Virus record (IMG/VR): IMGVR_UViG_3300029983_000007
Coordinates: 1-64,000 of that record
Length of the DNA: 64,000 bases
Source: a virus
Direction: 5' to 3' (one strand)
Below, piece by piece: positions 15,995 to 61,560 of this stretch. Each line of letters starts with the position of its first letter. Position 1 is the first letter of the stretch. The notes below the pieces were generated by a model. That model made no database searches and was not told where the DNA came from. It worked only from the letters and a program-made list of their open reading frames with translations. The position numbers and the translations under genes are program-made.

Positions 15995-16270
15995 TTATAA
16001 GTTATATTTTTTTGATGATAGATGTATTTTTATTTCAGGTATTGCATTTAAGTCTACAATTTCTTCTGTTACTTTTTTTATCCACATATTATTGTCATAT
16101 CCTTTCATACATAAATAACAGTTAACAATTTCATCTAAATCAAATGGATTTGCATCAGGTTCAATTTCTTCTGAATCTCCATTTTTATCAATTTTCATTA
16201 GTTTATATTCAGGATCATATATAACTGGGTCAATTATATTTTCAAATTTTTCAAATTTTCTAATTTCCAT
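15995..16270 (-). CDS. small protein with N-terminal leader and C-terminal KKYNL tag
   Basis: 91 residues. The N terminus MEIRKFEKFENII and the C terminus SSKKYNL belong to the paired tags seen in eight proteins of this window. The body is acidic with no recognised domain. Last of a run of minus-strand genes from 18546. Confidence 0.6.
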   Translation of the reverse strand: MEIRKFEKFENIIDPVIYDPEYKLMKIDKNGDSEEIEPDANPFDLDEIVNCYLCMKGYDNNMWIKKVTEEIVDLNAIPEIKIHLSSKKYNL

Positions 16271-16272
16271 AT

Positions 16273-16527
16273 TTAATTATTATGTTTATTATAATATTTC
16301 GAAACAGTAGGATTGAAGAAATTACGTACAATTAAGTTAGATTCTATTGTATAAACTAATAATTTTTTAAGTTTATCAAGAAATGTGCTTGTTGTTTCAT
16401 TTTGAAACATTAAGTTAGATAATGATTTTGTCATTAATTCATCTTCATAATCAAAACCTTTTTCAATATTATCATTTATATGTTTTAAATCATATAATTC
16501 TTTAATTTGCATATCTTTTTCTATCAT
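16273..16527 (-). CDS. hypothetical protein
   Basis: 84 residues, helical (LSNLMFQNETTSTFLDKLKKLLVYTIESNLIVRN). No family recognised; no tag. Two bases from each neighbour in the operon. Confidence 0.55.
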   Translation of the reverse strand: MIEKDMQIKELYDLKHINDNIEKGFDYEDELMTKSLSNLMFQNETTSTFLDKLKKLLVYTIESNLIVRNFFNPTVSKYYNKHNN

Positions 16528-16529
16528 AG

Positions 16530-17069
16530 TTAAATATTGAATTTTTTTGTTGCGTCATAAGATTCTATGTCATTTATGAAATATATTAATAATTGATATT
16601 CATCTTTATTGAATGTGTAATCCCTGCTACGATTGAATACATCATTGTCTGTTATTCCTATTTCTAATGCATCATTTCCAGTTTCAGTATAAGTATAAAA
16701 ATCAACATATTCAGAATCTTTACATAAATTATTAAATTTTAGATATTCAGTGATCCATACAAATGTATCATTTCTATCAGATATTATTTTTATATAATTA
16801 TTTATTCCATTTTCCTTTAAATGTTTCTTATATTCTATCATTCTATTTTTTGATATTTCAAATTCTTCTTCATTTTCTATGCTATCAGTATATGCTATCA
16901 TATTACCATCCCAAAAATCAGTTATTTTAACTATATCTTCTATTTCCTCATATATTTTCAAATATTCAATTGTATATTCTAGTAATTCATCATATCTATC
17001 TACAATTTTAGATAATTTATCTTCCTGAATTGTACTTTCATTTAACTGAATAAATCTTTTAATTATCAT
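16530..17069 (-). CDS. tagged protein, leader IIKRFIQLNE and tail TKKFNI
   Basis: 179 residues. The N terminus MIIKRFIQLNESTIQED fits the capsid-targeting-like leader with a hydrophobic-x-E site (L-N-E), and the C terminus ATKKFNI fits the paired tail. The acidic body has no recognised domain. Overlaps its upstream neighbour by ATGA. Confidence 0.6.
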   Translation of the reverse strand: MIIKRFIQLNESTIQEDKLSKIVDRYDELLEYTIEYLKIYEEIEDIVKITDFWDGNMIAYTDSIENEEEFEISKNRMIEYKKHLKENGINNYIKIISDRNDTFVWITEYLKFNNLCKDSEYVDFYTYTETGNDALEIGITDNDVFNRSRDYTFNKDEYQLLIYFINDIESYDATKKFNI

Positions 17070-17602
17070 TCTGTTAATTTATTCTTTTTATCTGTCCAAA
17101 TATAATAACCATTGAATTCATTGTCATATACCATATTACCTAGTGTAGATATCACATTTAATGTTGTATCAAATGTTATAGTTTGTTGAAAAGAATATTT
17201 GACTTTTTCTTTATCAATAAAAGACAATGGTTTCATCATTATACCAAAAACATTTAATGAATCAGGTATATCTGAATAAAATTCTGATAACGCAAAAGTT
17301 ACTAAATTTTCTCTGATGTTTTCAATATCTTCTTTATCAAAAATACTACATTTGAATACTACTTTTTCAGTACCTAAAATGTCACCTGACATATCATTGA
17401 TCTTATATTGATGTTTCTTTTTGTCCATTAAATCAATATATTGATCATATGTTTTAAAATAATCAACAAGAGTTTTTGTGTATTTAGGTGTTGCTAATTT
17501 TATGTTATAAAAAAATTCATCTAATTTTACATTAGGTATTTGAAACTCATATAATGGAGACCATTCTGTAAATTTTTTTATACTATTTATTTCATTTATC
17601 AT
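17066..17602 (-). CDS. hypothetical protein
   Basis: 178 residues from ATG 17602. Longer in-frame starts (17644, 17677) would lie inside the preceding gene, so the inner ATG, 22 bases after that stop, is preferred. Mixed alpha/beta; no family recognised. Confidence 0.55.
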   Translation of the reverse strand: MINEINSIKKFTEWSPLYEFQIPNVKLDEFFYNIKLATPKYTKTLVDYFKTYDQYIDLMDKKKHQYKINDMSGDILGTEKVVFKCSIFDKEDIENIRENLVTFALSEFYSDIPDSLNVFGIMMKPLSFIDKEKVKYSFQQTITFDTTLNVISTLGNMVYDNEFNGYYIWTDKKNKLTE

Positions 17603-17624
17603 TTTTGTGTAATTATTTTTTATA

Positions 17625-17858
17625 TCAAAGACCTTCACCTGCATAACTATCAGCTTCATCCGCCTGTGCTTCTTCACGAAGTATCATTATATATTCTTTC
17701 TCTTTTGTTGACAATTTGTTAAACCAATTTATTATATTTAGTTTTTCTTCTTTAGATAAATCAGAATTCCAGTTGAATAATCCACTGCCATTGATTGAAT
17801 ATTCTTCTTCCTGAGTAATATTTTCATTTGTTGTACTATATTCTCTAACATTTTTCAT
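17625..17858 (-). CDS. small acidic protein
   Basis: 77 residues. NWFNKLSTKEKEYIMILREEAQADEADSYAGEGL: a helical, acidic C terminus. No family recognised. Adjacent to 17860 with one-base spacing. Confidence 0.5.
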   Translation of the reverse strand: MKNVREYSTTNENITQEEEYSINGSGLFNWNSDLSKEEKLNIINWFNKLSTKEKEYIMILREEAQADEADSYAGEGL

Positions 17859-17859
17859 T

Positions 17860-18546
17860 TTATTTATTTATTATTTTTAGGAAATCTTTGTATTGTTCAT
17901 CTGATAATTTAAGTTCTCCACTAGTGTCACCTCCATTTGATGTATAAGAAATATTTAACATTTTTTCATTTTTTAATAATCTAATACTAAAATCTATGTT
18001 ATTTAAACTAAATCTTATAAAAAATCTATCATTCAAGTCTATTATTGGAATTTTATCTAATTTCTTTAATTCATCTAGTATATTTAAAACTAATAATTTA
18101 TTGAATTCTGAAGTTTTGCTTCTTATTTTTTTGATATTATTAGAAATGAATACTGATTTTAAAAATTTATATAAAAAGAATCCAATTGCAAAAGATGTTA
18201 TTAATCCTAATGATTCATTTTTGTAATCATAAGAATTAAACTCTTTTATGTGTGTTAGTTTTTTATTTTTATATACATCATCTTTATCTTTTGCTATTAA
18301 GTCATCTAATATATCATTTAATACGCTTCTCACTAAATTCTTATACTCAGTATCATCTGTTATTATATTAGCACCTTTGTTTTTTATATCTTCTAAAACT
18401 TCATTAAACCTTTTTGAGTTTCTGTAATATTTTTTTAATGATTGAGGAGTTGCACCTTTATTTATATAAAAATTTATAATAGGATATAATTCAGAGAATA
18501 TATCTGATTTCGCTTGCTTAGTTAAGTTAGAATTTTCCATATTCAT
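17860..18546 (-). CDS. hypothetical protein with hydrophobic segment
   Basis: 228 residues. A helical N-terminal half, a hydrophobic stretch around residue 115 (LGLITSFAIGFFLYKFLKSVF), then a beta-rich C-terminal domain. Possibly membrane-associated. First gene of the minus-strand operon, divergent from 18593. Confidence 0.5.
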   Translation of the reverse strand: MNMENSNLTKQAKSDIFSELYPIINFYINKGATPQSLKKYYRNSKRFNEVLEDIKNKGANIITDDTEYKNLVRSVLNDILDDLIAKDKDDVYKNKKLTHIKEFNSYDYKNESLGLITSFAIGFFLYKFLKSVFISNNIKKIRSKTSEFNKLLVLNILDELKKLDKIPIIDLNDRFFIRFSLNNIDFSIRLLKNEKMLNISYTSNGGDTSGELKLSDEQYKDFLKIINK

Positions 18547-18574
18547 ATATATTAATATTTATTTTCTAAAAATA

Positions 18575-18590
18575 TTTTTTATATATAATT
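18575..18590 (+). promoter_or_regulatory. TTTATATATAA element upstream of tagged genes
   Basis: TTTTTATATATAATT ends two bases before ATG 18593. The same core recurs upstream of 20915, 28590, 35015 and several minus-strand genes and may be a phage-specific promoter element; function inferred. Confidence 0.35.
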
Positions 18591-18592
18591 AC

Positions 18593-18958
18593 ATGATAAC
18601 TAACTTTAAACTATTTGAAGATTATGATAAAAAATTAGTTTGGAATATACCAGTAAAAATGCCAGATTTTTATTTGTCATTGAAAAAAATTGGAATGTCA
18701 GATAGAGTAATTAAAGATTGGTTAAGGCTTCGTCAGAATAAAGTGTTTTCAACTAAAGATACTAATACTAATTTTGAAACTATTTCATTAGTAAAAGATT
18801 CAGAACAAGAAGACTCATATACATGGTATTGGTATCCAACATCAGAAAGTGATGAATATACTATATATATGGGTAAATTAGAATGTACTCCAGAAGAAAT
18901 TCATAAATACTATGATGACATTGAATTTAAAAAAAATATTACCAAATTTAATATATGA
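18593..18958 (+). CDS. tagged protein, leader NFKLFED and tail TKFNI
   Basis: 121 residues. Begins MITNFKLFEDYDKK, identical over its first nine residues to the next gene, and ends ITKFNI. The body (PDFYLSLKKIGMSDRVIKDWLRLRQNKVF) is not recognised. Overlaps the next gene by ATGA; the leader looks like a capsid-targeting sequence with an L-F-E site. Confidence 0.65.
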   Translation: MITNFKLFEDYDKKLVWNIPVKMPDFYLSLKKIGMSDRVIKDWLRLRQNKVFSTKDTNTNFETISLVKDSEQEDSYTWYWYPTSESDEYTIYMGKLECTPEEIHKYYDDIEFKKNITKFNI

Positions 18959-19266
18959 TAACTAACTTTAAACTATTTGAAACAATTAATGTAGGTAAAC
19001 CAGAAATTGGAGATTTTGTGATATGTAATGAAGATGATTCTACGTCTGAGGTTACGTATTTTACCTCAAATAATATAGGTAAATATATTAAGTATAATTA
19101 TGACATTGAATATCATTATGCTATATATTATGAAGATACACCAAAAGATTTAGGTGTATATTTTTCAAACGGTGAAAGAAATATGACATTAGATGAAATA
19201 AAATATTGGTCAAAAAATAAAGAAGAATTGGAATATATAATTAAAACAAATAAATTCAATTTATGA
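18955..19266 (+). CDS. tagged protein, leader NFKLFET and tail NKFNL
   Basis: 103 residues, start MITNFKLFETINVG, end KTNKFNL. Beta-rich body (GDFVICNEDDSTSEVTYFTSNN; YHYAIYYED) without a recognised family. Its leader DNA is also identical to that of the preceding gene, which suggests copying of the leader itself. Confidence 0.65.
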   Translation: MITNFKLFETINVGKPEIGDFVICNEDDSTSEVTYFTSNNIGKYIKYNYDIEYHYAIYYEDTPKDLGVYFSNGERNMTLDEIKYWSKNKEELEYIIKTNKFNL

Positions 19267-19772
19267 TAATCAACTTTAAAATATTTGAAGATTATTCTGA
19301 TGATGAGATTAGAAAAATTGAAGCAACATCAGAATTAATGAAAATTGTTGATGAAAAATCACGAGATACAAGAAGTATGGAGCCCGCAATAAAAATGATA
19401 AATTTATTGGATAAAGGAGCATATCCAAATATTAAATCTAAAAATGGACAGACTCCTTTGACTTATGCTGCTACTTTATGCTATCATGACTTAATTTATA
19501 AACTTATAGAAGTTGGTGCTAATTTAGAAGCTAAAAATGATAACGGTGATACTCCGTTGATGAGGTCAGCAATAAATAGTGACTTAGCATCAATGTTTGT
19601 ATTATTATCTGCTGGATCGTCATTATATTGTAAAAATATACAAGGGCATAAACCTTTTGATTTTTTGACTGATTATGATATTAATAGAATAGCTATTAAA
19701 TATCCAGAACAATATAAAGATTATTTGAAAAAAGAAGAATTTGATAATTCAGTTAAAAAATTTAATTTATAA
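19263..19772 (+). CDS. ankyrin-repeat protein with leader and tail tags
   Basis: 169 residues. Leader MIINFKIFEDYSDD, tail SVKKFNL. Between them are about three ankyrin repeats: LLDKGAYPNIKSKNGQTPL, LIEVGANLEAKNDNGDTPL and LLSAGSSLYCKNIQGHKPF. Ankyrin repeats bind proteins, so a packaged and injected binder of a host protein is an attractive but unproven reading. ATGA overlap with the preceding gene. Confidence 0.8.
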   Translation: MIINFKIFEDYSDDEIRKIEATSELMKIVDEKSRDTRSMEPAIKMINLLDKGAYPNIKSKNGQTPLTYAATLCYHDLIYKLIEVGANLEAKNDNGDTPLMRSAINSDLASMFVLLSAGSSLYCKNIQGHKPFDFLTDYDINRIAIKYPEQYKDYLKKEEFDNSVKKFNL

Positions 19773-19773
19773 T

Positions 19774-20442
19774 ATGAAACATGTTAAAATGTATGAAGAT
19801 AATGATTTTACTATTTTATTCGAAAATGAAAACGAATTAAAAAATCTATTGTTAAAGAATAAGTTTTTTTCTGAAGGCGATGTGTTTTCTGGTATAATAG
19901 ATGTTTCATATAAACATTTCACACCAAAAATTGGATATGATAATTTTTTAGAAATTATAAAAACGAAATTTGGATTATTACCTTATTTTTGTATTCTTCT
20001 TGGTAGTTATAATGGACAAGTTTGTAATGGCGGACATATGCAATATTTTGATAATGGATATGCCAGTTCAAAATCAAGAAAAAAATATGACGGATCTGAT
20101 TATGATAATGTTAATTTACATGAAAAATTACTTAGATTATTTAAATTTTTGAAAATAGAACAATGTGTACCTAAAAAATTAGGAGAAAAAGTATATTCAA
20201 TAATGAAAGATTTTGATTTTGATTGTGTTGCATTTGAATGTTACAATGGAGATGACGGACAATATAATGAGAATGATAATGATAAACATGATTATTTAGA
20301 AGAATTGGACAACAGATGGTATGATGTAACTGAAGAATTTATTAATAAATTTAATGAATATCTCAAAAAATTAACTTTAGATGGTGAAAAAATCGAAAAT
20401 ATGTTAGAATTATCATCCAATATTAATAAATACAATATATAA
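19774..20442 (+). CDS. hypothetical protein with leader-like start and KYNI tail
   Basis: 222 residues from ATG 19774, just after the upstream stop. Start MKHVKMYEDNDF, end INKYNI. The body contains LLGSYNGQVCNGGHMQYFDNGYAS and VAFECYNGDDGQY, resembling the DUF4375-like family of bacterial proteins with a conserved NGGxxQ(Y/F)xxN motif. That resemblance is from memory and no enzymatic role is known. Confidence 0.6.
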   Translation: MKHVKMYEDNDFTILFENENELKNLLLKNKFFSEGDVFSGIIDVSYKHFTPKIGYDNFLEIIKTKFGLLPYFCILLGSYNGQVCNGGHMQYFDNGYASSKSRKKYDGSDYDNVNLHEKLLRLFKFLKIEQCVPKKLGEKVYSIMKDFDFDCVAFECYNGDDGQYNENDNDKHDYLEELDNRWYDVTEEFINKFNEYLKKLTLDGEKIENMLELSSNINKYNI

Positions 20443-23641: not shown

Positions 23642-25003
23642 ATGACAGCGCAGGAAAAAAGAGATAAAATTACAGATTTAAAAAAGAAAATAGATCAAAC
23701 AAAAGCAGATTATGATAGAGCGAAAGCAATGCAATTAGCTCTGAAATTGGTAATTAATGGAACATATGGTGCGTTCGCACATCCAAAATTTGTATTATCA
23801 AATTCACATATTGCAAATGCAATAACTGCTCAAGGACGTGATGTTATAAATTATATGCTAAAAAAAATAGAGACTTATTTCTATAAAGAATGGCATTTAG
23901 ATGTTAAAACTCATCAACTTCTTGGACTTGAATATATTGCTGAAAAAGAAGGTAGTTTTTATCTATTAGATAGAAATGGTGAAAATATTCATTATAAATA
24001 TGAATCTGTTGATGAATTATTAGAAAAATTGAATTATTATCGTAGTAATTTAATTGAAGATAAAAAAGAATTGAATGGCTATAATATTTTGTATAGTAGA
24101 TTTATTCATGATTTTTCTAATGTGACACCAATACCAAAAGATGTTCCAATTACAATTTATGGAGATACAGATTCATTGTATATTTCTTTCGCTCCTATGG
24201 TTAAATCATCTGGTTATAATGGAGATGAATTAGATTTCATTCTTCATATGGATAGAGTTTTTATTGAGAAGTTATATAATGGTTGGTTAGAAGAATATGC
24301 AGAAAAATATGGTGTTAAGAATATTCACAACTTTGAATTAGAAACAATTAATAGATCAGCATTACATATACAAAAGAAACATTATATAAATAACGTTGCT
24401 TGGGAAGATGGATTATTTTATGAAAGTATGAGTTATTTTTATCCAAAAGGAGTTGAAATTGTTAAATCATCTACTCCTCCATTTGTCAGAGAAAATATTT
24501 ATGAGTTTTTGAGATATATTTTCTCGAATCCTAATAATTTGAACATTAGAAAAATATTACTAATTGTGAAAGATTTGAAAAAACAATTTATGATGGCTAA
24601 TATTGAGGATATTAGTATGACATCAAGTTGTACAAATTATCCAATTAAAGTTATTGATGATGTGACAGATGTTCTTTGTGTCAAAGGTGCTCACTTTGCA
24701 GTCAAAGCTGCAGCTTTACACAATTACTTATTAAATAAGAACTCTGAGTATAAAACAAAGTATGATAATATTAGAGGTGGACGTGTAAAATATTTTTATT
24801 GTAATCATACTAAGAATGGCGTGTTCGCTTATCAAAGAGGACTGTATCCATATGAAATTTGTGAAAAAGAAGGAGTTAAAATAGATTATGATGAACAATT
24901 CGATGTGACAATGCTTCATATTGTGAATAGATTCCTTGAACCTATTGGATTACCTACAATAAATAAAAGATTATCTGTTTTAAATTCAATATTTCAATTT
25001 TAG
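23642..25003 (+). CDS. family-B DNA polymerase, C-terminal fragment (split gene 43)
   Basis: 453 residues. It starts in the fingers and contains polymerase motif B, KLVINGTYGAF (K35-G43), and motif C, YGDTDSLYISF (D175, D177), then the thumb. The end, LSVLNSIFQF, resembles the sliding-clamp-binding peptide of T4-type polymerases. The exonuclease domain and motif A are missing and are not encoded upstream in this window, so the enzyme must be made of two polypeptides or be defective. Flanking Hef-like genes mirror the split gene 43 of some Aeromonas phages. Confidence 0.88.
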   Translation: MTAQEKRDKITDLKKKIDQTKADYDRAKAMQLALKLVINGTYGAFAHPKFVLSNSHIANAITAQGRDVINYMLKKIETYFYKEWHLDVKTHQLLGLEYIAEKEGSFYLLDRNGENIHYKYESVDELLEKLNYYRSNLIEDKKELNGYNILYSRFIHDFSNVTPIPKDVPITIYGDTDSLYISFAPMVKSSGYNGDELDFILHMDRVFIEKLYNGWLEEYAEKYGVKNIHNFELETINRSALHIQKKHYINNVAWEDGLFYESMSYFYPKGVEIVKSSTPPFVRENIYEFLRYIFSNPNNLNIRKILLIVKDLKKQFMMANIEDISMTSSCTNYPIKVIDDVTDVLCVKGAHFAVKAAALHNYLLNKNSEYKTKYDNIRGGRVKYFYCNHTKNGVFAYQRGLYPYEICEKEGVKIDYDEQFDVTMLHIVNRFLEPIGLPTINKRLSVLNSIFQF

Positions 25004-30006: not shown

Positions 30007-30342
30007 ATGATAATACATAAATTTAATGAAAATAATAACGAAGATTATGATGATTTTGTGAATAAAGTGAAAACTTTATTTTTAGAATTGTGGGATGATA
30101 AAATAGGAATTTCAAATTTTAAAATTGATACAAATGTTCAATATAATGTAAGTTTTAAAATTGGCTATAATTCAGTTACAAATAAAAATTTTACAGAATA
30201 TAATGAATTGTTTAAAATATTAAACAATTCTGGTCCAGAATTTCAATTCATTTCTGGTACTATGTATGCAAAGATAACTAATTTTAGTAAACTAATTGAA
30301 GATATGAAACTATTATTAAATTCAAAAAAATTTAATTTATAA
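30007..30342 (+). CDS. tagged protein, leader IIHKFNE and tail KKFNL
   Basis: 111 residues. Start MIIHKFNENNNEDY, end LNSKKFNL. The body (VKTLFLELWDDKIGISNFKI; FKILNNSGPEFQF) is a paralogue of the next gene (KELFLDLWDDTLFLTKL). No family recognised. Overlaps the next start by one base. Confidence 0.65.
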   Translation: MIIHKFNENNNEDYDDFVNKVKTLFLELWDDKIGISNFKIDTNVQYNVSFKIGYNSVTNKNFTEYNELFKILNNSGPEFQFISGTMYAKITNFSKLIEDMKLLLNSKKFNL

Positions 30343-30680
30343 TGGAAATAGATAGATTTAGAAATGAAGCAAAAATATTATCTAATGACACAAAAGAATT
30401 GTTTTTAGATTTGTGGGATGATACATTATTTCTAACTAAATTGTGTGTACAATCATATGTAGATACATCCAATAATATTTTTTATCAATTGTCTTGCTCA
30501 ATGCACAAATCTATTGATAAAGACACATATAATATTTATAAAACTTTATTTGATATTCTAGTTAGATGTGATGTTGATTTTAAGTTCGATAAAAATGAAT
30601 TATCAGCTCAATTTGAGGATATCAATACTTTTATAAAAGAAATGAAAACATTAAAAGATTCAAAAAAATTTAACATATAA
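30342..30680 (+). CDS. tagged protein, leader EIDRFRNE and tail KKFNI
   Basis: 112 residues. Start MEIDRFRNEAKIL, end KDSKKFNI. Paralogue of the preceding gene, sharing the LFL-LWDD block and the C-terminal tag while most of the body has diverged, so the tags are kept more strictly than the core. Confidence 0.65.
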   Translation: MEIDRFRNEAKILSNDTKELFLDLWDDTLFLTKLCVQSYVDTSNNIFYQLSCSMHKSIDKDTYNIYKTLFDILVRCDVDFKFDKNELSAQFEDINTFIKEMKTLKDSKKFNI

Positions 30681-35014: not shown

Positions 35015-35656
35015 ATGGAGATATTCAAATTCGGGAATTTTGTTATAAATGAAAATATATCATTAATTGATCATGACGGTATATTATTAATTGTTGACGT
35101 TCAATCTAATTTTAAAAAATATTTTCCTACTGATCCTAATGGATTTATTAAAAAAATAGACAAATATTGTTTAGATTTTCCATCAGATGACACAGGAAAA
35201 GGAGTTTATCAAATATGGGATTCAAATCAAGGATCTAAACCAACATACAAATTTAAAAATGAGATAGATTTAATTGAAAAAAAATATGGAGTCAAAAAAT
35301 TTTATTCTAAATATAAAGGGGGGTTTAAAGAATGGATAACACACATATTTGATAATAAAACATTAGAAGAATTCAAATCTAGAAATAATGTATTTAAAAA
35401 AGGTGATGCATTTAAGTTAAGGGATAAAAATGAATTTTTGATATATATAGGAAATAATCATCAATGGTTTTACGTTAATGAAGAATTGGTAGAATTATTT
35501 AAAAAATTAAGAAATAAAAAAGTTATAATATGTGGAGGAGCAGAAGATGAATGTTTAGATGACGTGTATATAGCATTAAAGTCGTTTAATGTTAATGTAA
35601 TTAAAAATCATCAATATATATATAGTGCAGAAACAGGTAACTATTTGAAGAAATAA
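35015..35656 (+). CDS. isochorismatase-like cysteine hydrolase with capsid-targeting-like leader
   Basis: 213 residues. Leader MEIFKFGNFVINENIS with an I-N-E site, then LLIVDVQSNF (D28), a lysine-rich loop SKYKGGF (K99/K101) and ICGGAEDECLDDV (C180), aligned with GLATNYCVGST of the nicotinamidase at 5880. The D-K-C set suggests an active hydrolase, but the metal-site motif of PncA is not evident, so the substrate is open (nicotinamide, isochorismate or another amide). If the leader works as in T4, the enzyme would be packaged and injected. Confidence 0.7.
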   Translation: MEIFKFGNFVINENISLIDHDGILLIVDVQSNFKKYFPTDPNGFIKKIDKYCLDFPSDDTGKGVYQIWDSNQGSKPTYKFKNEIDLIEKKYGVKKFYSKYKGGFKEWITHIFDNKTLEEFKSRNNVFKKGDAFKLRDKNEFLIYIGNNHQWFYVNEELVELFKKLRNKKVIICGGAEDECLDDVYIALKSFNVNVIKNHQYIYSAETGNYLKK

Positions 35657-41525: not shown

Positions 41526-42293
41526 TTAATTCATTTTCTCAAATCTCCATTTAAAGTAATAATAGTCATTATTTTCTATATGGTAAGTATCTTCATTTAT
41601 CTTCATTATGATATATGGCTTATTGTTACTATTGATATTATATCCTAAAATTTCAACTACTTTGTTTTCGTTTATTTCAAATAGTTTGCCTATATTATCT
41701 TTTACCTTAGTTTCATTTTTCATATTTTTATAAAACCCTTTATCTGGTATGAACCATTTATCTAACTTTTTATAAAAATAATTACTCAATTTTAGTTTAT
41801 ATTCACTATCAAATCTGTATAAGTATTCTGGCTCGAAATATACTTCTGATTCAAGTGTTGGTCTTATTAAACCATTATAATTTCTGAATACGCCAAAATA
41901 TTCTTCTTTATCAAATTCAAATGATATAAATACATCTAATTTTAAACTACTATTTTCATATATTCTTAAAATTTTAATGTTGTCATACAATTCAATATCT
42001 TCCAAAAATGGATTACTATCTTTATAGATTAAGTTATTTTGACCACGTAAGCCTTTTATTACTCTATCTAAGTTAGATACTAAGCCAGATTGACGGGCAT
42101 AAAAATCAGTATATGGACTATCCTGATAGTTATAATACGATGAGCTTGGATCCTGAGCAAAGGCAAAGTCTCCTCCTCCTCCTGCAGTACCCATTGGTTC
42201 AATCCCGAATTGAAATTGTTGAAATTCTGAATCCTCTGTTATTAGGTTTGCTTCATTAAAAAATGAATATCTACTATATTTTAATACTTTCAT
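41526..42293 (-). CDS. putative virion protein with leader
   Basis: 255 residues. Leader MKVLKYSRYSFFNEANLI with an F-N-E site, a glycine-rich segment (MGTAGGGGDFAFAQDPSSSY), then a beta-rich domain (YIIMKINEDTYHIENNDYYYF). The leader suggests packaging in the capsid or head; no family recognised. Its upstream region has the TTTATATATAA element (about 42297-42311). Confidence 0.55.
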   Translation of the reverse strand: MKVLKYSRYSFFNEANLITEDSEFQQFQFGIEPMGTAGGGGDFAFAQDPSSSYYNYQDSPYTDFYARQSGLVSNLDRVIKGLRGQNNLIYKDSNPFLEDIELYDNIKILRIYENSSLKLDVFISFEFDKEEYFGVFRNYNGLIRPTLESEVYFEPEYLYRFDSEYKLKLSNYFYKKLDKWFIPDKGFYKNMKNETKVKDNIGKLFEINENKVVEILGYNINSNNKPYIIMKINEDTYHIENNDYYYFKWRFEKMN

Positions 42294-42876: not shown

Positions 42877-44847
42877 ATGGAATTAAAAAATATTCAAAAT
42901 CGTAAAGATTTTATTAAAATGAATGAAATTTTTGGTGGAACTCAAGGTGGAGTTGGCGCTAGAGATGGATTTGCAAATAATTCTGAATTGAAAGATACTT
43001 ATTTAGGAAAACTAATGAATGGTTTATTTAAAGGATTGAGTTGGTTATGGAGAAAAAGTAAAGAAAATTTCATTATTAACAGAATGATTGCAAAATTAAT
43101 TAATGAATTAGTTCGTGGAGTTATAATATATTGCTTCATAAAAAAAATTGATTTACAATCAGGTAAAATATCAGAATCAGAATCTGAATCAGTAAACAAA
43201 GAAAATGTAGAATCAAATGATAACAAAGTTAATTTTGATGTAATTAAAAAGGATATTGGAGAGGATTTGTTTAATAGAATGATGAGCGGTAATGAAGATG
43301 AAGATGTTGAAGAATTGATTAAAAAATCAGGAATAAAAACAGATAATGATAGAACGATAATAAAAAATATCAATGACGTAAAAGAAGTTGTAGATAAGGA
43401 AGATTATAATAGAATGGAAACTGAAACATACGAATTTTTGAAGAAAAATATTCAATATTTTGACGAAATTAAGAAAAATGCAGATGACGGCGATGAAGAT
43501 TCTAAAAAGAAACTTGATATGATAAAAGCTATCTATGTCAATTATGAAATAGTTAGAAAATTAAAAGAAAAAGAAACAAAAAATAAAGGAGCATTAGGAG
43601 AAGCATCATTAACAAATGAGGCATTAACTAAACTGAGAACAGATTCTAGTGCTGGTAAAATTGGATTAGGATCAAATTCTCCAACTATAAGTCCTGCTAT
43701 CAATCCAAAATCACTTATTAAAAGTTTTGTTAGTGTTAAAAGCATTATAACTAAAAGAGATCAAGACAAATATAAAGAGCGTGAAGCTGATTTTTCTCTA
43801 CCAATATCAGATATAAATTTAGCTGAAATAGAAAAAACAATTAATAGAAAAACTGATGTTATGAAAGAAGTTTCATCAAATGTAAATTCTGAAAGTTTGA
43901 AAGTAATTCAACTTACTGTGAAAGAATTATTAGTTTCAAATAGTCAAGAACAAAATGTAGAAAAAGAAAAATTAAAATTGAGATGGGATAAAGAATTATC
44001 AAAGGTGTATGCTAGTTTTTCTTTACTGATGGATATACCAAGTGTTGATATAAGAGATGGAAACTACGGATCAGGCTTAAATTTATCAGGCTCAACATCA
44101 AGGGTATATAAAGAAGTTAAACAAATTGGTTCTGATACAGAATCATTGAAAATTGGCGATCAATTGGGTGATTCATTAAATCCAGTTGAAACTAAAATAG
44201 GTGGATTGGAAGGAAATTGGCAATATTGTATTTTTGATTATCAAGGAATAAATTATAATGCTACAATAGCACCAATTAGTTCTGCACCATCAAATGGATT
44301 TTATATGTTTATGGTTACGCAGACAATTAAGAAAATAGAAAATAATGTTGTCACATCAAATTTTAAAGAATTTGAGAAAATTTTTACATCTACAAATTTT
44401 GCAAATGTTAATCTTAAAAAAGATGATGTAGTTAATGTATACTTCATGTTAAAGAAAGGTGCTAGTTTACCATCAGGTACAAGTGCAAATACAAATGGGC
44501 AAAGCAATAGTTTTTTAGTTTTTAATAATTATATTAGTTCTGACAATAAAACCAATAAATTGTTTCTATGTGAGCCATCAGGAGAGAAATTTATAGCTGA
44601 TTTGGATTTAAGTAATCCTAGTAATACAATTGATGGCGTAATAGCTAGTAATTATCAAAAAGATAAAATTAGTATTAAGAGCTGTCGTAAGTTTGATAGA
44701 GTTAAATTTTGGTGGAAAGCATTAAATCTTATAACTGATACTAATGATAAAAAATTCTGTGCTTTTAAAGATGATGAAAGTAATCCTGTATTTTGGAATG
44801 ATAAAGTAGTATTAGATAATCTAAAGAAAATTGCATCTAAATTTTAA
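42877..44847 (+). CDS. large hypothetical, probably virion-associated protein
   Basis: 656 residues. An N-terminal segment with GGTQGGVGARDGFANNSELK and an amphipathic or membrane-like helix (INELVRGVIIYCFIKK), an acidic helical middle, and a C-terminal beta-rich domain (GNWQYCIFDYQGINYNATIA; NGFYMFMVTQTIKKIENNVV). RKDFIKMNE near residue 12 resembles the leader motif. Position next to leader-bearing proteins suggests an internal or head protein. Confidence 0.5.
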   Translation: MELKNIQNRKDFIKMNEIFGGTQGGVGARDGFANNSELKDTYLGKLMNGLFKGLSWLWRKSKENFIINRMIAKLINELVRGVIIYCFIKKIDLQSGKISESESESVNKENVESNDNKVNFDVIKKDIGEDLFNRMMSGNEDEDVEELIKKSGIKTDNDRTIIKNINDVKEVVDKEDYNRMETETYEFLKKNIQYFDEIKKNADDGDEDSKKKLDMIKAIYVNYEIVRKLKEKETKNKGALGEASLTNEALTKLRTDSSAGKIGLGSNSPTISPAINPKSLIKSFVSVKSIITKRDQDKYKEREADFSLPISDINLAEIEKTINRKTDVMKEVSSNVNSESLKVIQLTVKELLVSNSQEQNVEKEKLKLRWDKELSKVYASFSLLMDIPSVDIRDGNYGSGLNLSGSTSRVYKEVKQIGSDTESLKIGDQLGDSLNPVETKIGGLEGNWQYCIFDYQGINYNATIAPISSAPSNGFYMFMVTQTIKKIENNVVTSNFKEFEKIFTSTNFANVNLKKDDVVNVYFMLKKGASLPSGTSANTNGQSNSFLVFNNYISSDNKTNKLFLCEPSGEKFIADLDLSNPSNTIDGVIASNYQKDKISIKSCRKFDRVKFWWKALNLITDTNDKKFCAFKDDESNPVFWNDKVVLDNLKKIASKF

Positions 44848-44866: not shown

Positions 44867-45958
44867 ATGAAAAAAACATATTCAGATTTCATATTAAATG
44901 AACAAGATTCATCAACAGCAGTTGCTCCTAGTGCAACTACAAAAGTAGAGCCAACTAATACTGCTGAAACAACAAAAACAATCAATCCTGATGTACCTGG
45001 TGAAGAAAAAACAACAGTTGATCAAGAACAAGATGATACAAAAAAAGATGACAGTCAAAAAGATGAAATAATATCAAATTTTGATGAAACAAAAGGAGAA
45101 GAGATTATCAAAGAAATTCGTGATTTTTGGATAAATAAAATAATAACAGAAAATGAATTAAATTTTTCTGGTAACACATTAAAGATTCTTTATGTCAAAC
45201 AAAAAAATTCAAAATATATTAAATACAAAGATACTATTAATGAAGTTATTGCATCAAAAACAGCAGAATGTAATCAAAGATTGATTGATTCTGATGTTAA
45301 CGATATGTTTTTTTATGTTGATTATCCTATTAAACTTATCAAAAAAGGATTGACAGGCAAACCTAGTATTGTTTCATTCTTTAATAGACAAACTGATGAA
45401 AAATATAACTCTAAAATAAAAGAAATAATAAGTAATAATGAATATGCTGATAGCTCAGGATTACCTGAATATCAGAAAAAATTAGTATTGGGTGAATTCG
45501 AATTATTAACAGACATAGATGAAAAACATACATATATGTATGATAATCAGCCAGTTGAATTTACATTCGAAAATGGTGCAATAAAAACAATGGTCAATGC
45601 AGATACAAATAATTCAATTAGTTTAGTAGATAAAAACGACAAAAATATATTTGATATCACAAAATTGAAAAAATATGATGAATCAGCCAAATCAGATATA
45701 ACAACAAACACTACAACTGTTGCTGCTACCACAACAAACACAACAACTGTTGCTGCTACCACAACAAACACAACAACTGTTGCTGCTACCACAACAAACA
45801 CTACAACTGTTGCTGCTACCACAACAAACACTACAACTATTGCTGCTACCACAACAAACACAACAACTATTGCTGTGAGTAAGAAAAATGTTATGAATAG
45901 TAAAGATTTTAAAAATAATAAAATTTTAAATAAAAATAAGAATAAAAACACATTTTAA
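44867..45958 (+). CDS. protein with T4-like capsid-targeting leader and TNTTTVAATT repeats
   Basis: 363 residues. MKKTYSDFILNEQD is close to the T4 capsid-targeting sequence MKTYQEFIAE, including the hydrophobic-x-E cleavage pattern (L-N-E). A Thr/Glu/Asp-rich linker, a globular central region (about 80-270), and six copies of a 10-residue repeat TNTTTVAATT follow, then a basic end. Likely an internal head protein. Confidence 0.65.
   Translation: MKKTYSDFILNEQDSSTAVAPSATTKVEPTNTAETTKTINPDVPGEEKTTVDQEQDDTKKDDSQKDEIISNFDETKGEEIIKEIRDFWINKIITENELNFSGNTLKILYVKQKNSKYIKYKDTINEVIASKTAECNQRLIDSDVNDMFFYVDYPIKLIKKGLTGKPSIVSFFNRQTDEKYNSKIKEIISNNEYADSSGLPEYQKKLVLGEFELLTDIDEKHTYMYDNQPVEFTFENGAIKTMVNADTNNSISLVDKNDKNIFDITKLKKYDESAKSDITTNTTTVAATTTNTTTVAATTTNTTTVAATTTNTTTVAATTTNTTTIAATTTNTTTIAVSKKNVMNSKDFKNNKILNKNKNKNTF
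45699..45875 (+). repeat. 30-bp tandem repeat, about six copies
   Basis: Unit ACAACAAACACTACAACTGT followed by TGCTGCTACC, in frame, with only single-base differences (caacaact/ctacaact; actgt/actat). It encodes the TNTTTVAATT repeats. The near identity at the DNA level points to recent expansion by slippage. Confidence 0.85.
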
Positions 45959-45972: not shown

Positions 45973-46407
45973 ATGAAACATATAAACAATTATGAATTTT
46001 TTTTAGAAAATGGTACGAGTAATCCTAACACACCACAAGGTTATGTAAATTCATTATCAAACAAAACAAAATTAAAACCAATCCAAAATAACAACAATCA
46101 ACAGATAAACAAACAGAAACCTACAGATGAAGTAGATAATATATTACAAGACACTGAGCAACAGAAACAAAATATTGTGGCAAAGAAAGATGTTATAGAA
46201 AAAGGTTTACTTCAGAATATTCAAGATTTAGAACCTGAAAATCAAAAAGTGGTAAAAACACAAGTACAGGATTATAAAAACCAAGTACAAGAATTTGATA
46301 AAACTGTACAGCAAATAGATAAATTAAATAAGACACTTAAAAAATCTAATGTTAATGTAAATGCAAACATAAACATGAAAAATGCAAGAAAACAAAATAA
46401 TTTTTAA
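45973..46407 (+). CDS. small coiled-coil protein with leader
   Basis: 144 residues. Start MKHINNYEFFLENGT (leader-like F-F-L-E), then an Asn/Gln-rich linker and a coiled coil (LQNIQDLEPENQKVV; VQEFDKTVQQIDKLNKTLKK), ending in a basic asparagine-rich tail. Likely an internal or scaffolding-like protein. Between two genes of the presumed virion operon. Confidence 0.55.
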   Translation: MKHINNYEFFLENGTSNPNTPQGYVNSLSNKTKLKPIQNNNNQQINKQKPTDEVDNILQDTEQQKQNIVAKKDVIEKGLLQNIQDLEPENQKVVKTQVQDYKNQVQEFDKTVQQIDKLNKTLKKSNVNVNANINMKNARKQNNF

Positions 46408-53687: not shown

Positions 53688-54884
53688 TCAAATATCTTTA
53701 TTTGGCGTACGAATATATCCATTATTTATATGATTTTTAAATAATTTTTCTAATAACACTTTTTTACGAGCTGCATTATATGCGCCCACACTATTTTTAG
53801 TAAATTCGCATATGTTGTCATATTTATTAGCTTCTTCTTGTAATGTTTCTTCTGTCCAATATCCAAGTTTAACTTGTTTTTCTGAATAACCTTGATTTTT
53901 GTGATTTTTAAATAATTCATCTAACATTTTTCTACTTTTGGCTGCAATATAAGCAGAACTATTTTCTCTAAATTCTTTTCTTGTTTTATATTTATTAGCT
54001 TCTTCTTGTAAAGATTTTATTGTCCATTTTAATCCACCTGATCCTAATGATCCAGCTTTGACTGAATTTATCATAATCCATTCATTATTTTCATAAACAT
54101 CAACCCAATATATTTCCTTTTTTATAGCGTCATTAGAATTTAAATTTTCTTCTAATAATTTATACTTTGGAAGAGGAATATTATTTATTTTACAAAAATT
54201 AATCAATGATTCTTTTTCACTAAATAAATGTTCTTTGTCTCGTCTATTTATATTGTTTGTTAATCCAACATAAGCATTATTATAATTTGTGAATTCATAA
54301 ACATATATAACATAACTATTTTCTTTCCATTCAATTATATTCCGACGTCCTTGATTGTCGTGATTTTTAAATAATTCATCTATTAATCTATTTTTATACG
54401 CAATTTTATAACCTGTGCTTTTTTTCTGAAATTCTCCTCTTGTTATATATTTATTAGCTTCTTCTTGTAATCTATCAAACGTCCAATAACCTTTTTTATT
54501 TACTTTAATATCAAATCCGTTATTAGAATGATTTTTGAATAATTCATCTATTAATTTTTTACTTAATGCTGCACTATATGCAGATTTGTTTTTACGAAAT
54601 TCTCCTCTTGTTTTATGTTTGTTTGCTTCTTCTTGAAGTTTTTCTCTATTCCAATGCCCAATAGTCATTTTACCTTCTTCGTAACCTTTATTTATGTGAT
54701 TTTTAAATAAATCATCAATTAATTTAATTTTAGATGCCGCTATATAAGCGGAGTTGCATTTTTCTCTAAATTCTTTTCGATTTTCGTATTTATCAGCTTC
54801 TTCTTGCAATTTGTCAATAGTCCAATAACCAATAGGTTTACGACTTTCATTTATAAAAATATTATAATTTTTACTTATTTTCAT
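53688..54884 (-). CDS. GIY-YIG homing endonuclease with DNA-binding repeats and a leader-like N terminus
   Basis: 398 residues. A central GIY-YIG domain (YVYEFTNYNNAYVGLTNNIN, RRDKEH, catalytic-type E in KKEIYWVDVYE) is flanked by five copies of a 50-residue module (YWTxxxLQEEANKYxTRxEF ... LxDELFKNHxNxGY), three before and two after. The first residues MKISKNYNIFINESRK match the capsid-targeting-like leader with an I-N-E site, which is strange for a homing enzyme. Next to the atypical tRNA at 54949. Confidence 0.75.
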   Translation of the reverse strand: MKISKNYNIFINESRKPIGYWTIDKLQEEADKYENRKEFREKCNSAYIAASKIKLIDDLFKNHINKGYEEGKMTIGHWNREKLQEEANKHKTRGEFRKNKSAYSAALSKKLIDELFKNHSNNGFDIKVNKKGYWTFDRLQEEANKYITRGEFQKKSTGYKIAYKNRLIDELFKNHDNQGRRNIIEWKENSYVIYVYEFTNYNNAYVGLTNNINRRDKEHLFSEKESLINFCKINNIPLPKYKLLEENLNSNDAIKKEIYWVDVYENNEWIMINSVKAGSLGSGGLKWTIKSLQEEANKYKTRKEFRENSSAYIAAKSRKMLDELFKNHKNQGYSEKQVKLGYWTEETLQEEANKYDNICEFTKNSVGAYNAARKKVLLEKLFKNHINNGYIRTPNKDI

Positions 54885-58805: not shown

Positions 58806-58876
58806 TTGCGGACGTCTGATTCAAACAGCGACTATGGGTTATGAGCCCATTGAGATATCATTTCTCCACCTCCGCG
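58806..58876 (-). tRNA. initiator tRNA-Met (CAT), copy 2
   Basis: All 71 bases are identical to the gene at 58719; the pair is an 87-base tandem duplication including the short leader. Initiator features: C1-A72 mismatch and GGG/CCC anticodon stem. Confidence 0.85.
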
Positions 58877-58883
58877 ATATATT

Positions 58884-59510
58884 TTAATTTTTTCTGTTTC
58901 TATGATACAATTTTAGTGATTCTGAAATCTTTATTTTAGTTTCATCTGAAATTTTACTTTTATTTACTGTTTTATATGAATCAGACATTTTTTTCTTACT
59001 TTCATCTGATACAAAATGATTTTTTAATTTATTAGATATTTTATTTCTTTCTTCTTCAGATTCAAATCTTTTTTTAGCTGAATCTGACAATTTCTTTCTT
59101 GTTTCTTCTGATACAATTCTACATTTTAAAGATTCTGAAATCTTTTTCTTCGATTCATCAGAAAAAATTTTACCTATTGATGATTCTTTTAATTTATTTT
59201 TAGTTTCATCACTATGTTTTTTACCTTTAAAATGTGGACCACCTTCTCCTCCAATTCCTATATTATAATTTCTTTTTGATTTTATAAAATCTTCTGTTAT
59301 AATTTCTTTTTCTTTTTTATTCATTTCTGATTCATTATCAAAAATAAACAAAATTTCTTTTTTGAAATTTTCCTTACCATGCAATTTAATTGCATTTTCT
59401 AAGGCTTTACCAGAACCATAATAAGAATCATTTGTATTTTCAGTTTGATGCTTTCCAATATAATACTTATCATTTAATATATTTGTTGTTTTATAAATTG
59501 TATAGTACAA
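58884..59510 (-). CDS. GIY-YIG homing endonuclease with NUMOD3 repeats
   Basis: 208 residues. YTIYKTTNILNDKYYIGKHQ and YYGSGKALENAIKLHGKENF form the GIY-YIG domain; the C-terminal half is a series of NUMOD3-type DNA-binding helices (HSDETKNKLKESSIGKIFSD; SEETRKKLSDSAKKRF). Directly upstream of the initiator tRNA pair. Related to the gene at 56807. Confidence 0.85.
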   Translation of the reverse strand: MYYTIYKTTNILNDKYYIGKHQTENTNDSYYGSGKALENAIKLHGKENFKKEILFIFDNESEMNKKEKEIITEDFIKSKRNYNIGIGGEGGPHFKGKKHSDETKNKLKESSIGKIFSDESKKKISESLKCRIVSEETRKKLSDSAKKRFESEEERNKISNKLKNHFVSDESKKKMSDSYKTVNKSKISDETKIKISESLKLYHRNRKN

Positions 59511-59582
59511 AATTATTTCTTTTTTATGTATATATAAATATATAAAATCAGAAATTAACCTGTTACCACTATACTATATATT

Positions 59583-59816
59583 TTAATCTTTTTCTTTATC
59601 TATTTTCTTATAAAGTTTCTTAGCAATCTCTTTTGCTTTTGAATTCATTCCTTTTTCTGTTTTAGGAACTTCACTATAATCAATTTTGATTTTATCAGCA
59701 AACATTATAAATTTTTCAGTTCTATCAGATTTCTTTTTCAGTTCATCATAATTTCCTTGAATTCTATTTACTACTTCTGCTGATTCATCAATTTTATTTT
59801 CTTTAACTTTTTTCAT
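59583..59816 (-). CDS. small basic protein
   Basis: 77 residues from ATG 59816. Six upstream in-frame codons lie inside the terminator hairpin at 59821, so this later start is preferred. Body: KSDRTEKFIMFADKIKIDYS, end KAKEIAKKLYKKIDKEKD. No family recognised. Confidence 0.5.
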   Translation of the reverse strand: MKKVKENKIDESAEVVNRIQGNYDELKKKSDRTEKFIMFADKIKIDYSEVPKTEKGMNSKAKEIAKKLYKKIDKEKD

Positions 59817-59820
59817 AACA

Positions 59821-59853
59821 AAAAATCCAGTCATTTTTTAATTGACTGGATTT
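59821..59853 (-). terminator. terminator
   Basis: Arms AAATCCAGTCA/TGACTGGATTT with a nine-base loop; ends the small gene at 59881 read leftwards. Confidence 0.65.
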
Positions 59854-59880
59854 ATATATTTATAGGCATAAGCCTTAAAT

Positions 59881-59970
59881 TTATTTCTCAGTCAATTGGG
59901 ATGTATCATCAATATTATTGATAATTTCGTTGTTACACATTTCCTCATTTATATATAAATTACGATACAT
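59881..59970 (-). CDS. 29-residue small protein
   Basis: MYRNLYINEEMCNNEIINNI... ending SQLTEK, with the YRN/IN pattern shared with the 58558 product. Lies downstream of two tandem promoters (60076, 60175) and before a terminator. Confidence 0.45.
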   Translation of the reverse strand: MYRNLYINEEMCNNEIINNIDDTSQLTEK

Positions 59971-60075
59971 CTTGTTTTGTTTTTTTATTATTATTTTTGT
60001 TGAAAGTTTAATATTTTATTCTTTGTTATATATTATAGAAAAAAAGTCATTTTTTTCTATTTTTAATTTGTAGTA

Positions 60076-60107
60076 CAAAAGTAATACAAAGTTTTCATTC
60101 TACCAAA
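60076..60107 (-). promoter_or_regulatory. Bacteroidota-type promoter, copy A
   Basis: Minus strand: TTTG (60104-60107), 20 bases, TACTTTTG (60076-60083), in a context TTTGGTAGAATGAAAACTTT shared with copy B. Confidence 0.75.
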
Positions 60108-60174
60108 TGTTTTTCAATCTTTTTTATATATTATTGAAAAAATATCATTTTTTTCTACTTTTAATATGATAGTG

Positions 60175-60206
60175 CAAAATTACAATAAAGTTTTCATTCT
60201 ACCAAA
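60175..60206 (-). promoter_or_regulatory. Bacteroidota-type promoter, copy B
   Basis: Minus strand: TTTG (60203-60206), 20 bases, TAATTTTG (60175-60182). The spacer begins with the same GTAGAATGAAAACTTT as copy A, about 99 bases away; a duplication. Confidence 0.75.
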
Positions 60207-60361
60207 TCTTTTGATTGTTTTTCTTCAATATGTTTTTTAAATAGTTTATTAAATAATTTATAAATATTACTGAATTGTATATCATTGTAGAAATTTGTTT
60301 GTTTTTCAATTTCTTCTTTAGATTTAGTTTTTAAATCTGTTGGACTTAATCCTGTAATTGA

Positions 60362-60565
60362 TCACCTTTCATACTCACTATTCATGTGTTTTGAAAAGTT
60401 TTCATCTATTGTGGTTACTCCTGCTCTGGTTGAACCACCAAAATGATGGGCTTTTACTGTATCACCTTCATTGAACATAGTACCATAAAAAGGTCTTGCT
60501 ATTGTACCATCAGCATTGACATATAATCCTAAGAAATCTTTTCTTATTTTTACTATTTTAGACAT
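60362..60565 (-). CDS. small protein followed by an in-frame readable extension
   Basis: 67 residues from ATG 60565 (MSKIVKIRKDFLGLYVNADG); an earlier ATG at 60589 overlaps the upstream gene. It contains HHFGGSTRAGVTTIDENF. The frame stays open for 55 more codons after the TGA at 60362 (SITGLSPTDLKTKSKEEIEK ... KDLVE, stop at 60194), which suggests a truncated longer gene. Confidence 0.55.
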   Translation of the reverse strand: MSKIVKIRKDFLGLYVNADGTIARPFYGTMFNEGDTVKAHHFGGSTRAGVTTIDENFSKHMNSEYER

Positions 60566-60569
60566 AACC

Positions 60570-60803
60570 TTATTGTTGTATTGACTCAATAACTATCGAA
60601 TTTTCATAACTTTCTAATTCTTCATAATATTCTTGTTCATCACATTGATTATCTTCACAATATTCTTCTTTTGATTCACCCATATATTCTTTTATGAATT
60701 CTGTTTTTGCAGTATTTGCATCTTTTGGTGTATCAAATATTCCTATGAATATATTATCTGACATTGTACCAGTACTTGTAACGTAATCTACTTTGTATTT
60801 CAT
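60570..60803 (-). CDS. small acidic protein
   Basis: 77 residues: beta-strand start (MKYKVDYVTSTGTMSDNIFI), helix (DTPKDANTAKTEFIKEYM), and an acidic tail with three cysteine-proximal residues (EEYCEDNQCDEQEYYEELE). No family recognised. Own promoter at 60826. Confidence 0.55.
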   Translation of the reverse strand: MKYKVDYVTSTGTMSDNIFIGIFDTPKDANTAKTEFIKEYMGESKEEYCEDNQCDEQEYYEELESYENSIVIESIQQ

Positions 60804-60825
60804 ATTAAATTATTTTTAATTTGTG

Positions 60826-60857
60826 TAAAAATACAATAATTTTTTCATTTTACCAAA
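60826..60857 (-). promoter_or_regulatory. Bacteroidota-type promoter
   Basis: Minus strand: TTTG (60854-60857), 20 bases, TATTTTTA (one mismatch to TAnnTTTG). Its TTTGGTA-A-ATGAAAA context resembles the promoters at 60076 and 60175. Confidence 0.6.
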
Positions 60858-60874
60858 TGTTTATCAACTTATTT

Positions 60875-60917
60875 AAAAAAATAACCTTTCTTTTCAATGA
60901 AGAAAAGAAAGGTTTAT
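60875..60917 (-). terminator. terminator
   Basis: 13-pair stem AACCTTTCTTTTC/GAAAAGAAAGGTT, six-base loop; in the minus direction it is followed by a T-run. It ends the gene at 60939. Confidence 0.8.
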
Positions 60918-60938
60918 GTATTTCTATTTATTGTTTTT

Positions 60939-61118
60939 TTACATTGAAAGTTCTTTCTTTTTCTTTGTATAGAATGAGAAACCACCATATTCTTTATCAA
61001 TACCAGGAATTACCATGAAATTTTTAAGATTAACACTTTCTTTTACTGAATAATATTCTTCTTTTGTTAAAAAAAATACTTTTGTAGATTTTGCTGAGTT
61101 ACTTGAGTTGGTTGTCAT
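60939..61118 (-). CDS. small protein
   Basis: 59 residues, ATG 61118, TAA 60939. Starts MTTNSSNSAKSTKVFFLTKE and ends GGFSFYTKKKKELSM. A good promoter (61166) and terminator (60875) bracket it, supporting a single-gene unit. No family recognised. Confidence 0.6.
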   Translation of the reverse strand: MTTNSSNSAKSTKVFFLTKEEYYSVKESVNLKNFMVIPGIDKEYGGFSFYTKKKKELSM

Positions 61119-61165
61119 AATGTTTAATTTAAATTGTTTAAATGATTGTTGTTTTAATTTCTACA

Positions 61166-61197
61166 CAAAGATACTTCTGTTTTGAATATCTACCAAA
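61166..61197 (-). promoter_or_regulatory. Bacteroidota-type promoter
   Basis: Minus strand: TTTG (61194-61197), 20 bases, TATCTTTG (61166-61173), 48 bases before the start at 61118. Confidence 0.75.
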
Positions 61198-61317
61198 TAT
61201 TTTAGTGTTTTTTAATGATTTAGATATATTTTGACTTATATTTTATATTTTAGTAACATTATAAATAAAAAATCAGTTTTATAATATAAATATATACTAA
61301 AAAAAGATATTATAAAT

Positions 61318-61560
61318 ATGAAAAATATTAAAAATTTTGTAGATTATAAATCTATGAATGAAAAATGGAAAGATGATGTTAAAGTTAAGCACACTGGCGA
61401 ACATTCTGGTAAGACTATTGAAGAGTTAGAAAGTGAATTATCATCACTTAAGAAAAGAAGCAAAAAATATCAAGAATCAGGTAAAGATGTACCAAAGAGT
61501 ATCATTGATCAAGAGCAAGAAATAAATTTTGCAATTCGAGCAAAAAAACATTGGAAATAA
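61318..61560 (+). CDS. conserved small phage protein with leader-like start
   Basis: 80 residues. Start MKNIKNFVDYKSMNEKW resembles the capsid-targeting-like leader (M-N-E site). The rest, KHTGEHSGKTIEELESELSS and EINFAIRAKKHW, is typical of a conserved uncharacterised phage protein. Terminator follows directly. Confidence 0.65.
   Translation: MKNIKNFVDYKSMNEKWKDDVKVKHTGEHSGKTIEELESELSSLKKRSKKYQESGKDVPKSIIDQEQEINFAIRAKKHWK

Follow-up and report, generated by a model that had tools for sequence, protein, structure and literature searches.

The virus record IMGVR_UViG_3300029983_000007 from IMG/VR is a linear sequence of 330,208 bases with a GC content of 24%, and its first 64 kb (64,000 nucleotides) form the window analysed here. 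In this record, about 107 proteins begin with one of a few related short leader peptides, and most of these proteins also end in a short tail, K[FY]N[IL]. The leader resembles the capsid-targeting sequence (CTS) that serves phage T4 as a head-loading label, and the virus may therefore load some 100 proteins into its head and inject them. A T4-like capsid-targeting role of the leader is considered rather likely. No earlier report of the leaders or of the tail was found in the open-access literature (PMC). A sequence-only reading of the window had noticed a shared leader on at least 13 unrelated proteins and had proposed a search for it in the rest of the genome. The leader is real and was under-counted: it is present on 16 open reading frames (ORFs) of the window, and most of the leader genes of the record lie outside it.

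A leader and a tail on unrelated proteins

When the leaders are sorted into strict classes, 96 of the 568 ORFs of the record carry one, compared with 3.9 expected by shuffling (at most 11 in 500 shuffles) and 3.3 expected from windows at internal methionines. Manual additions bring the total to 107 proteins. Most leaders have the form MKY[IL]KxFE, and the forms MITNFK[IL]FE, xKFNE and FILNE are also present. The regular expressions that define the classes were written after the data had been seen, and they hold independently because they co-occur with the tail, which was not used in defining them, and because the frozen expressions were again associated with the tail (P=5e-14) on contigs chosen solely for a capsid gene. 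All ten N-termini quoted in the sequence-only reading are found where it placed them. The pattern written for them, M-x(2-6)-[FY]-x(1-3)-[FY/I/L]-x-E, is too loose, as it misses four of its own ten examples and has 56 matches genome-wide against 21.7 by shuffling (about 2.6-fold).

Within the main class, MKY[IL]KxFE (n=67), position 4 is I or L in 65 proteins and V or M in two. All 67 have F or Y at position 7 and E at position 8; the main-class expression fixes both but leaves their codons free, and E8 is encoded by GAA as well as GAG. Across the leaders, the codons for L, I, Y and H vary, F and Y alternate and E is constant. This synonymous variation, together with the end of main-class conservation at residue 9, indicates that the signal resides in the peptide.

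At the C-terminus, K[FY]N[ILVM] is found on 103 proteins, whereas 0.15 are expected. Leader and tail occur together in 86 of the 103 tail proteins (Fisher P=1.5e-63, with the 107-member leader set), and among the 17 ORFs with the tail alone, many have a leader that has diverged or an incorrectly placed start. The leader genes form tandem arrays with as many as 12 members, and 50 of the 107 overlap a neighbouring gene by ATGA. What looked like a conserved upstream DNA element is in fact the sequence that encodes the C-terminal tail of the preceding, overlapping gene. The tail is also kept by 33 tail genes that have no recognised leader gene close behind, several of which end at terminator-like sequence; the codons AAT and AAC for its N are used at about 50:50, F/Y and I/L interchange, and the stop codons differ. 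Since the tail is kept on terminal genes and varies synonymously, it is a protein signal, and both tags are selected as protein.

Behind the leader the proteins differ, as the sequence-only reading had claimed. The 107 leader proteins fall into 55 body clusters: 31 proteins belong to the GDYV family and 13 to an ankyrin-like cluster, two are LRR proteins, one is GIY-YIG-like, and many are singletons. Identity to the family reference is 21-42% for the bodies of the GDYV proteins, whereas their leader and tail are near-invariant, and a single body family can carry different leader subtypes. In an AlphaFold model of a GDYV protein, residues 1-8 have low confidence, as if the leader were disordered, and the tail ends the C-terminal helix. 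No fold match for this model was found in the PDB (best E 0.22), and Pfam scans of the tagged proteins named few domains.

Lineage of the record and head genes of its relatives

The record contains phage genes for DNA polymerase, primase, neck and tail-fibre proteins, and sequence comparison places its source among the bacteria-infecting giant phages of the Mahaphage lineage. Its neck protein shares 55% identity with the counterpart in LR756501, which is a Mahaphage-clade genome of 735 kb, and 38-40% with those in the 634-642 kb genomes; the neck proteins of PAU, pT24, PTm1 and MA9V-1/2 are more distant than those of the Mahaphage genomes. Judged by neck-protein identity, the closest named relatives are thus the 735- to 634-kb Mahaphages. 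The Mahaphage clade has been described, and its largest members have been predicted to replicate in Bacteroidetes (PMC7162821). The record, which is linear and without a capsid protein, is probably a fragment.

The junction at which a tail overlaps the following leader, taken as a DNA pattern, is found in at least 116 stretches of IMG/VR, many with several matches each, against only 17 lone matches, scattered across 257 Gb of genome sequence from bacteria and archaea. Across contigs, about 436 distinct dual-tagged proteins (171 clusters) were gathered, mostly from loci picked by the tag pattern, and the association P value of this set is left unused for that reason. In LR745206 and PAU the leader is present and the tail is absent, and the tail therefore looks like a lineage-specific addition.

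Head genes of the T4 type are found in relatives. An S77-type protease and a Gp23-type capsid protein are present throughout the clade, and a T4-like portal (Gp20) in the members scanned (Mahaphage relatives and PAU). Contigs of 24% GC from related samples carry the same dual tags together with head genes. One such tag-bearing contig has a portal (E=6.7e-63) and Gp23 (4.8e-24), above the Pfam cut-off, and an S77-like protease slightly below it (3.7e-5); a dual-tagged gene, MKIAKFNE...SEKYNL, sits between portal and protease. The prohead protease forms one protein with a scaffold-like region, in which Y-[ST]-[EN]-Y-[ILV]-A-E (YSEYIAEN) is repeated about 11-12 times; the repeat is near YQEFIAE of the T4 CTS and also resembles the cleavage site there. 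The fusion on contig L161 (7525-9897) has counterparts in LR756501, LR756502 and LR756504. The capsid proteins share [ILM]-x-E-N at the expected end of the propeptide. In PAU, 12 of the 17 leader genes lie within a 27-gene head module (P=2e-10).

A promoter-like motif, TT..ATATATA, is found about 31 bases upstream of 20 of 27 tagged operons and 8 of 8 structural operons, against 1 of 14 replication or metabolic operons and 26 of 158 other operons, with the gene classes assigned by hand. The motif was discovered on the tagged set, and the contrast between structural and replication operons was not used in its discovery. Its reverse orientation is also enriched because the motif is near-palindromic. 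It is a candidate late promoter of the lineage.

In T4, the CTS is MKTYQEFIAE and is carried by the internal proteins IPI, IPII, IPIII and Alt. For IPIII, the first 10 residues suffice, residues 4 and 7 acting in targeting and residues 8 and 10 in processing (PMC9026906), and the T4 internal proteins have been called a diverse set in which only the CTS is conserved (PMC3012670). The leader follows the same plan in 67/67 proteins of the main class, with hydrophobic or aromatic residues at positions 4 and 7 (Y4 and F7 in T4) and then Glu. In both phages, a short N-terminal peptide stands on small, unrelated and fast-diverging bodies, and the clade and T4 have in common the T4-type portal, S77 protease and Gp23. 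Unlike T4, with its handful of internal proteins, this phage has about 100 leader proteins, known here from genes alone, which are encoded in tandem overlapping arrays and have a second, C-terminal tag. Leaders of the same plan and length (MKT[LI]xxL[FY]E) are found in Sphingomonas phage PAU, where most adjoin portal, protease and capsid genes, although PAU has about 17 leader proteins with a slightly different leader sequence. The ejection proteins of phiKZ and SPN3US have propeptides that are cleaved by the prohead protease after Glu, at sites such as AVE and TFE (PMC5694885). These are also giant phages that package many proteins, but several of their propeptides are longer than 100 residues, and a shared short leader or tail is not described for them.

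A different short peptide is found in LR756501, in which DPYGEExW occurs 96 times and DPYxE is present in 88 proteins (stretches L021, L022 and L040-L071). In the 88 proteins, the sites are at C-termini, near N-termini or in linkers, and their codons are diverse; no such peptide was found in the present phage or in the other phages checked. As with the leader and the tail, it is a proteome-wide short peptide on unrelated proteins, often C-terminal and selected as protein. It differs from them in its sequence, in its additional internal and N-terminal positions and in not being restricted to leader proteins.

A probable head-loading role and other explanations

In the favoured explanation, the leader would be a short flexible peptide, hydrophobic at about position 4, aromatic at about position 7 and ending in Glu, that docks many unrelated small late proteins onto the prohead core, which here would be the scaffold fused to the S77-type prohead protease. 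The tagged proteins would be taken up into the head and would presumably leave it together with the DNA, to act in the host at an early stage. Cleavage after the Glu would be probable for leaders that end in FILNE, FINE, KFNE or LFE, and the abundant KKFE form might be cut through relaxed specificity or stay uncut. In most such proteins of the lineage, K[FY]N[IL] would be a second signal; it is presumably not removed, and it may retain the protein in the core or shell or help its ejection. We infer the targeting to the prohead core, the cleavage, the packaging, the ejection and any role of the tail. A more demanding version is a two-ended address code, in which a capsid-targeting peptide at the N-terminus and K[FY]N[IL] at the C-terminus would both be required to load into the head, for injection, about 100 fast-evolving proteins, whose genes make up 17% of the known sequence. 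This version is put forward tentatively. The C-terminal signal would serve retention in the core or shell, or exit with the DNA, and we know of no phage precedent for such a step.

The sequence-only reading had likewise proposed a modular system for packing proteins into the head and injecting them. The modular N-terminal address, its T4-CTS-like spacing, the T4-type heads in the lineage and the ties to head genes in PAU and in the tag-bearing contig agree with this proposal, whereas the majority leader (KKFE/KTFE) departs from the T4 cleavage consensus. The ending of that consensus, hydrophobic-x-E, is present in all ten leaders that were quoted but fails as a general rule in the commonest form, MKYIKKFE. 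Unlike T4, the main form ends in KxFE with a P3 that is mostly not hydrophobic (hydrophobic in 15/67 main-class leaders, compared with 36/40 minor-class leaders).

This departure weighs against a role in head loading, and so do several other observations. The proteins are small (median 125 amino acids), but those that bear the tail are acidic on average, with a mean net charge of -4.0, unlike the T4 internal proteins, which are small and basic. Among close orthologs, leader identity is 74% and body identity is 71%, and the expected higher conservation of the leader is not seen. The tagged genes make up 17% of the record, which would be a very large cargo, and in a relative, the protein that best matches the GIY-YIG-like one at 53688 has no leader. 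To our knowledge, no T4 internal protein has a common C-terminal tag, and no virion proteomics was found for any member of the clade. Searches of the record with related proteins found no protease or capsid match; the profiles PF03420 and PF07068 gave none in the record either, nor did they in control genomes. The lack of a gp21-type prohead protease in the genome had been named by the sequence-only reading as a refutation. This does not apply to the present record, because it is linear, also lacks a capsid protein and is probably a fragment, and because the contigs that share its tags have the S77-like protease, slightly below the cut-off, described above.

The foremost alternative is that the tags serve to dock the proteins on some other structure that the phage makes or on a host factor (membrane, replication compartment, chaperone or protease), and that the proteins are late intracellular effectors that never enter the head. 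The tagged proteins are mostly small and acidic on average, some have protein-binding bodies (ankyrin, LRR), and the commonest leader lacks the T4 cleavage consensus, all of which would suit such effectors; the DPYGEExW peptide of a clade member also indicates that address peptides are in use among these phages. Nevertheless, this alternative is judged unlikely, since it is at odds with the clustering of PAU leader genes in the head module, the leader gene between portal and protease, the promoter-like motif common to tagged and structural genes, and the fit of the leader spacing to the T4 CTS.

It is improbable that the tagged proteins form a single, hugely expanded paralogous family with ends conserved for folding. 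The GDYV family and the ankyrin-like cluster are large, and the tail does close the C-terminal helix in the model, but the 55 clusters in the record and the 171 among the 436 dual-tagged proteins include unrelated folds, the leader has low confidence in the model, one body family bears different leader subtypes, and PAU and LR745206 have the leader but no tail. Even less probable, and largely refuted, is an element at the level of RNA or DNA, with the leader as an A-rich translation start signal or a recombination handle for body shuffling and the tail as the ribosome-binding region of the next overlapping gene. The frequent ATGA overlaps and the position of the tail directly upstream of the next start codon, where it mimics a conserved upstream element, would suit this idea, but the tail is retained without a recognised leader gene close behind it, and both tags vary in their codons and, at the F/Y and I/L positions, in their residues, while E stays fixed. 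Chance resemblance in an AT-rich, Lys/Phe/Asn-rich proteome would be helped by the low GC, which enriches for K, F, N, I and E, and the loose pattern is only about 2.6-fold enriched, but this explanation is refuted by the counts of strict leaders, tails and their association and by the viral distribution of the junction.

If the head-loading explanation is true, the set of proteins that a phage injects could be predicted from its sequence. In each genome, the two tags would point to about 100 candidates for early effectors or anti-defence proteins, hardly any of which has a known function, and this in the lineage that includes the largest phages known. The capsid-targeting mechanism that serves a handful of proteins in T4 would be extended to a cargo on the scale of a proteome and joined by a second targeting signal, and the tags themselves would be candidates for peptides that load proteins into very large capsids. 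PAU is culturable, and the prediction is open to direct test in it.

Tagged genes of the window and neighbouring observations

Eight of the 16 leader ORFs of the window also have the tail, and the leaders at 17625 and 61318 are weak. The sequence-only reading had listed its leaders as one group and missed the C-terminal tag; two groups are mixed in its list. The first consists of dual-tagged small proteins (15995-20442 and 30007-30680), the leaders of which are genome-wide mostly MKYIKKFE. The second consists of tail-less, mostly longer proteins with leaders ending in FILNE, FVINE, FFNE or FFLE (35015, 41526, 42877, 44867, 45973 and 53688), and these leaders are nearest to the T4 CTS and mostly match the T4 cleavage consensus.

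On the minus strand, the dual-tagged ORFs are MEIRKFEKFE...SKKYNL (15995-16270) and MIIKRFIQLNE...TKKFNI (16530-17069), and an ortholog of the latter in a relative retains both tags (MIIKRFFQLNE...TKKFNI). The weak candidate MKNVREYSTTNE (17625-17858, minus strand) has no tail. On the plus strand, the promoter-like sequence TTTTTTATATATA (18575-18587) lies upstream of a tagged operon. The dual-tagged ORFs here are MITNFKLFE...ITKFNI (18593-18958); MITNFKLFE...GDFV...TNKFNL of the GDYV family (18955-19266), which overlaps the preceding gene by 4 bases; MIINFKIFE...VKKFNL, with a body of the ankyrin-like cluster (19263-19772); and MKHVKMYE...INKYNI (19774-20442), the final gene of the array, in which the tail is retained. 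Two further dual-tagged ORFs on the plus strand are MIIHKFNE...SKKFNL (30007-30342) and MEIDRFRNE...SKKFNI (30342-30680).

Among the tail-less proteins, the leader MEIFKFGNFVINE is found on a hydrolase-like protein (DGILLIVDVQ; 35015-35656, plus strand), and similar-looking proteins in LR756501 and LR745206 also begin with a leader. The sequence-only reading had named a cysteine hydrolase and a GIY-YIG nuclease among the bodies; this hydrolase-like protein has no confident Pfam domain, and the GIY-YIG-like protein, with the leader MKISKNYNIFINE (53688-54884, minus strand), is slightly below the Pfam cut-off. The leader MKVLKYSRYSFFNE (41526-42293, minus strand) has the promoter-like motif upstream. 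A 656-residue protein (42877-44847, plus strand) begins with the leader-like MELKNIQNRKDFIKMNE, and this start is partly conserved in LR756501 (MDLKNITPFEEFKKILE). The leader MKKTYSDFILNE (44867-45958, plus strand) had been described as very close to the T4 CTS, and it is indeed the nearest of the listed leaders; the protein has a Thr-rich C-terminal region. A PHROG match of this protein to a 'major tail protein' was rejected, as it spans part of the Thr-rich low-complexity region, and tblastn searches with the 42877 and 44867 proteins gave no match in named phages. The leader MKHINNYEFFLE (45973-46407, plus strand) and the weak candidate MKNIKNFVDYKSMNE (61318-61560, plus strand) are likewise without a tail.

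Other repeated N-termini are also present. Seven neighbouring genes (window 61590-63837 and record 65853-67059) begin with MKIRxGFVSNSSSSSF, in one case after an upstream Met, and then diverge. This N-terminus recurs in the relatives G001 and G002 and, from its sequence, is possibly a further N-terminal tag. At record positions 190969-194836, a tandem array of about 15 small genes has neither leader nor tail, and most of its genes have xIGDxLLCK near the N-terminus. The DNA polymerase appears to be split between two genes, one at window 23642-25003 and the other, about 90 kb away, at record 111471-112952; they match C- and N-terminal parts of phrog_262. Genes for NAD salvage are present as well, encoding a nicotinamide phosphoribosyltransferase-like protein and an NAD synthetase-like protein (window 2664-3851 and record 125887-127653).

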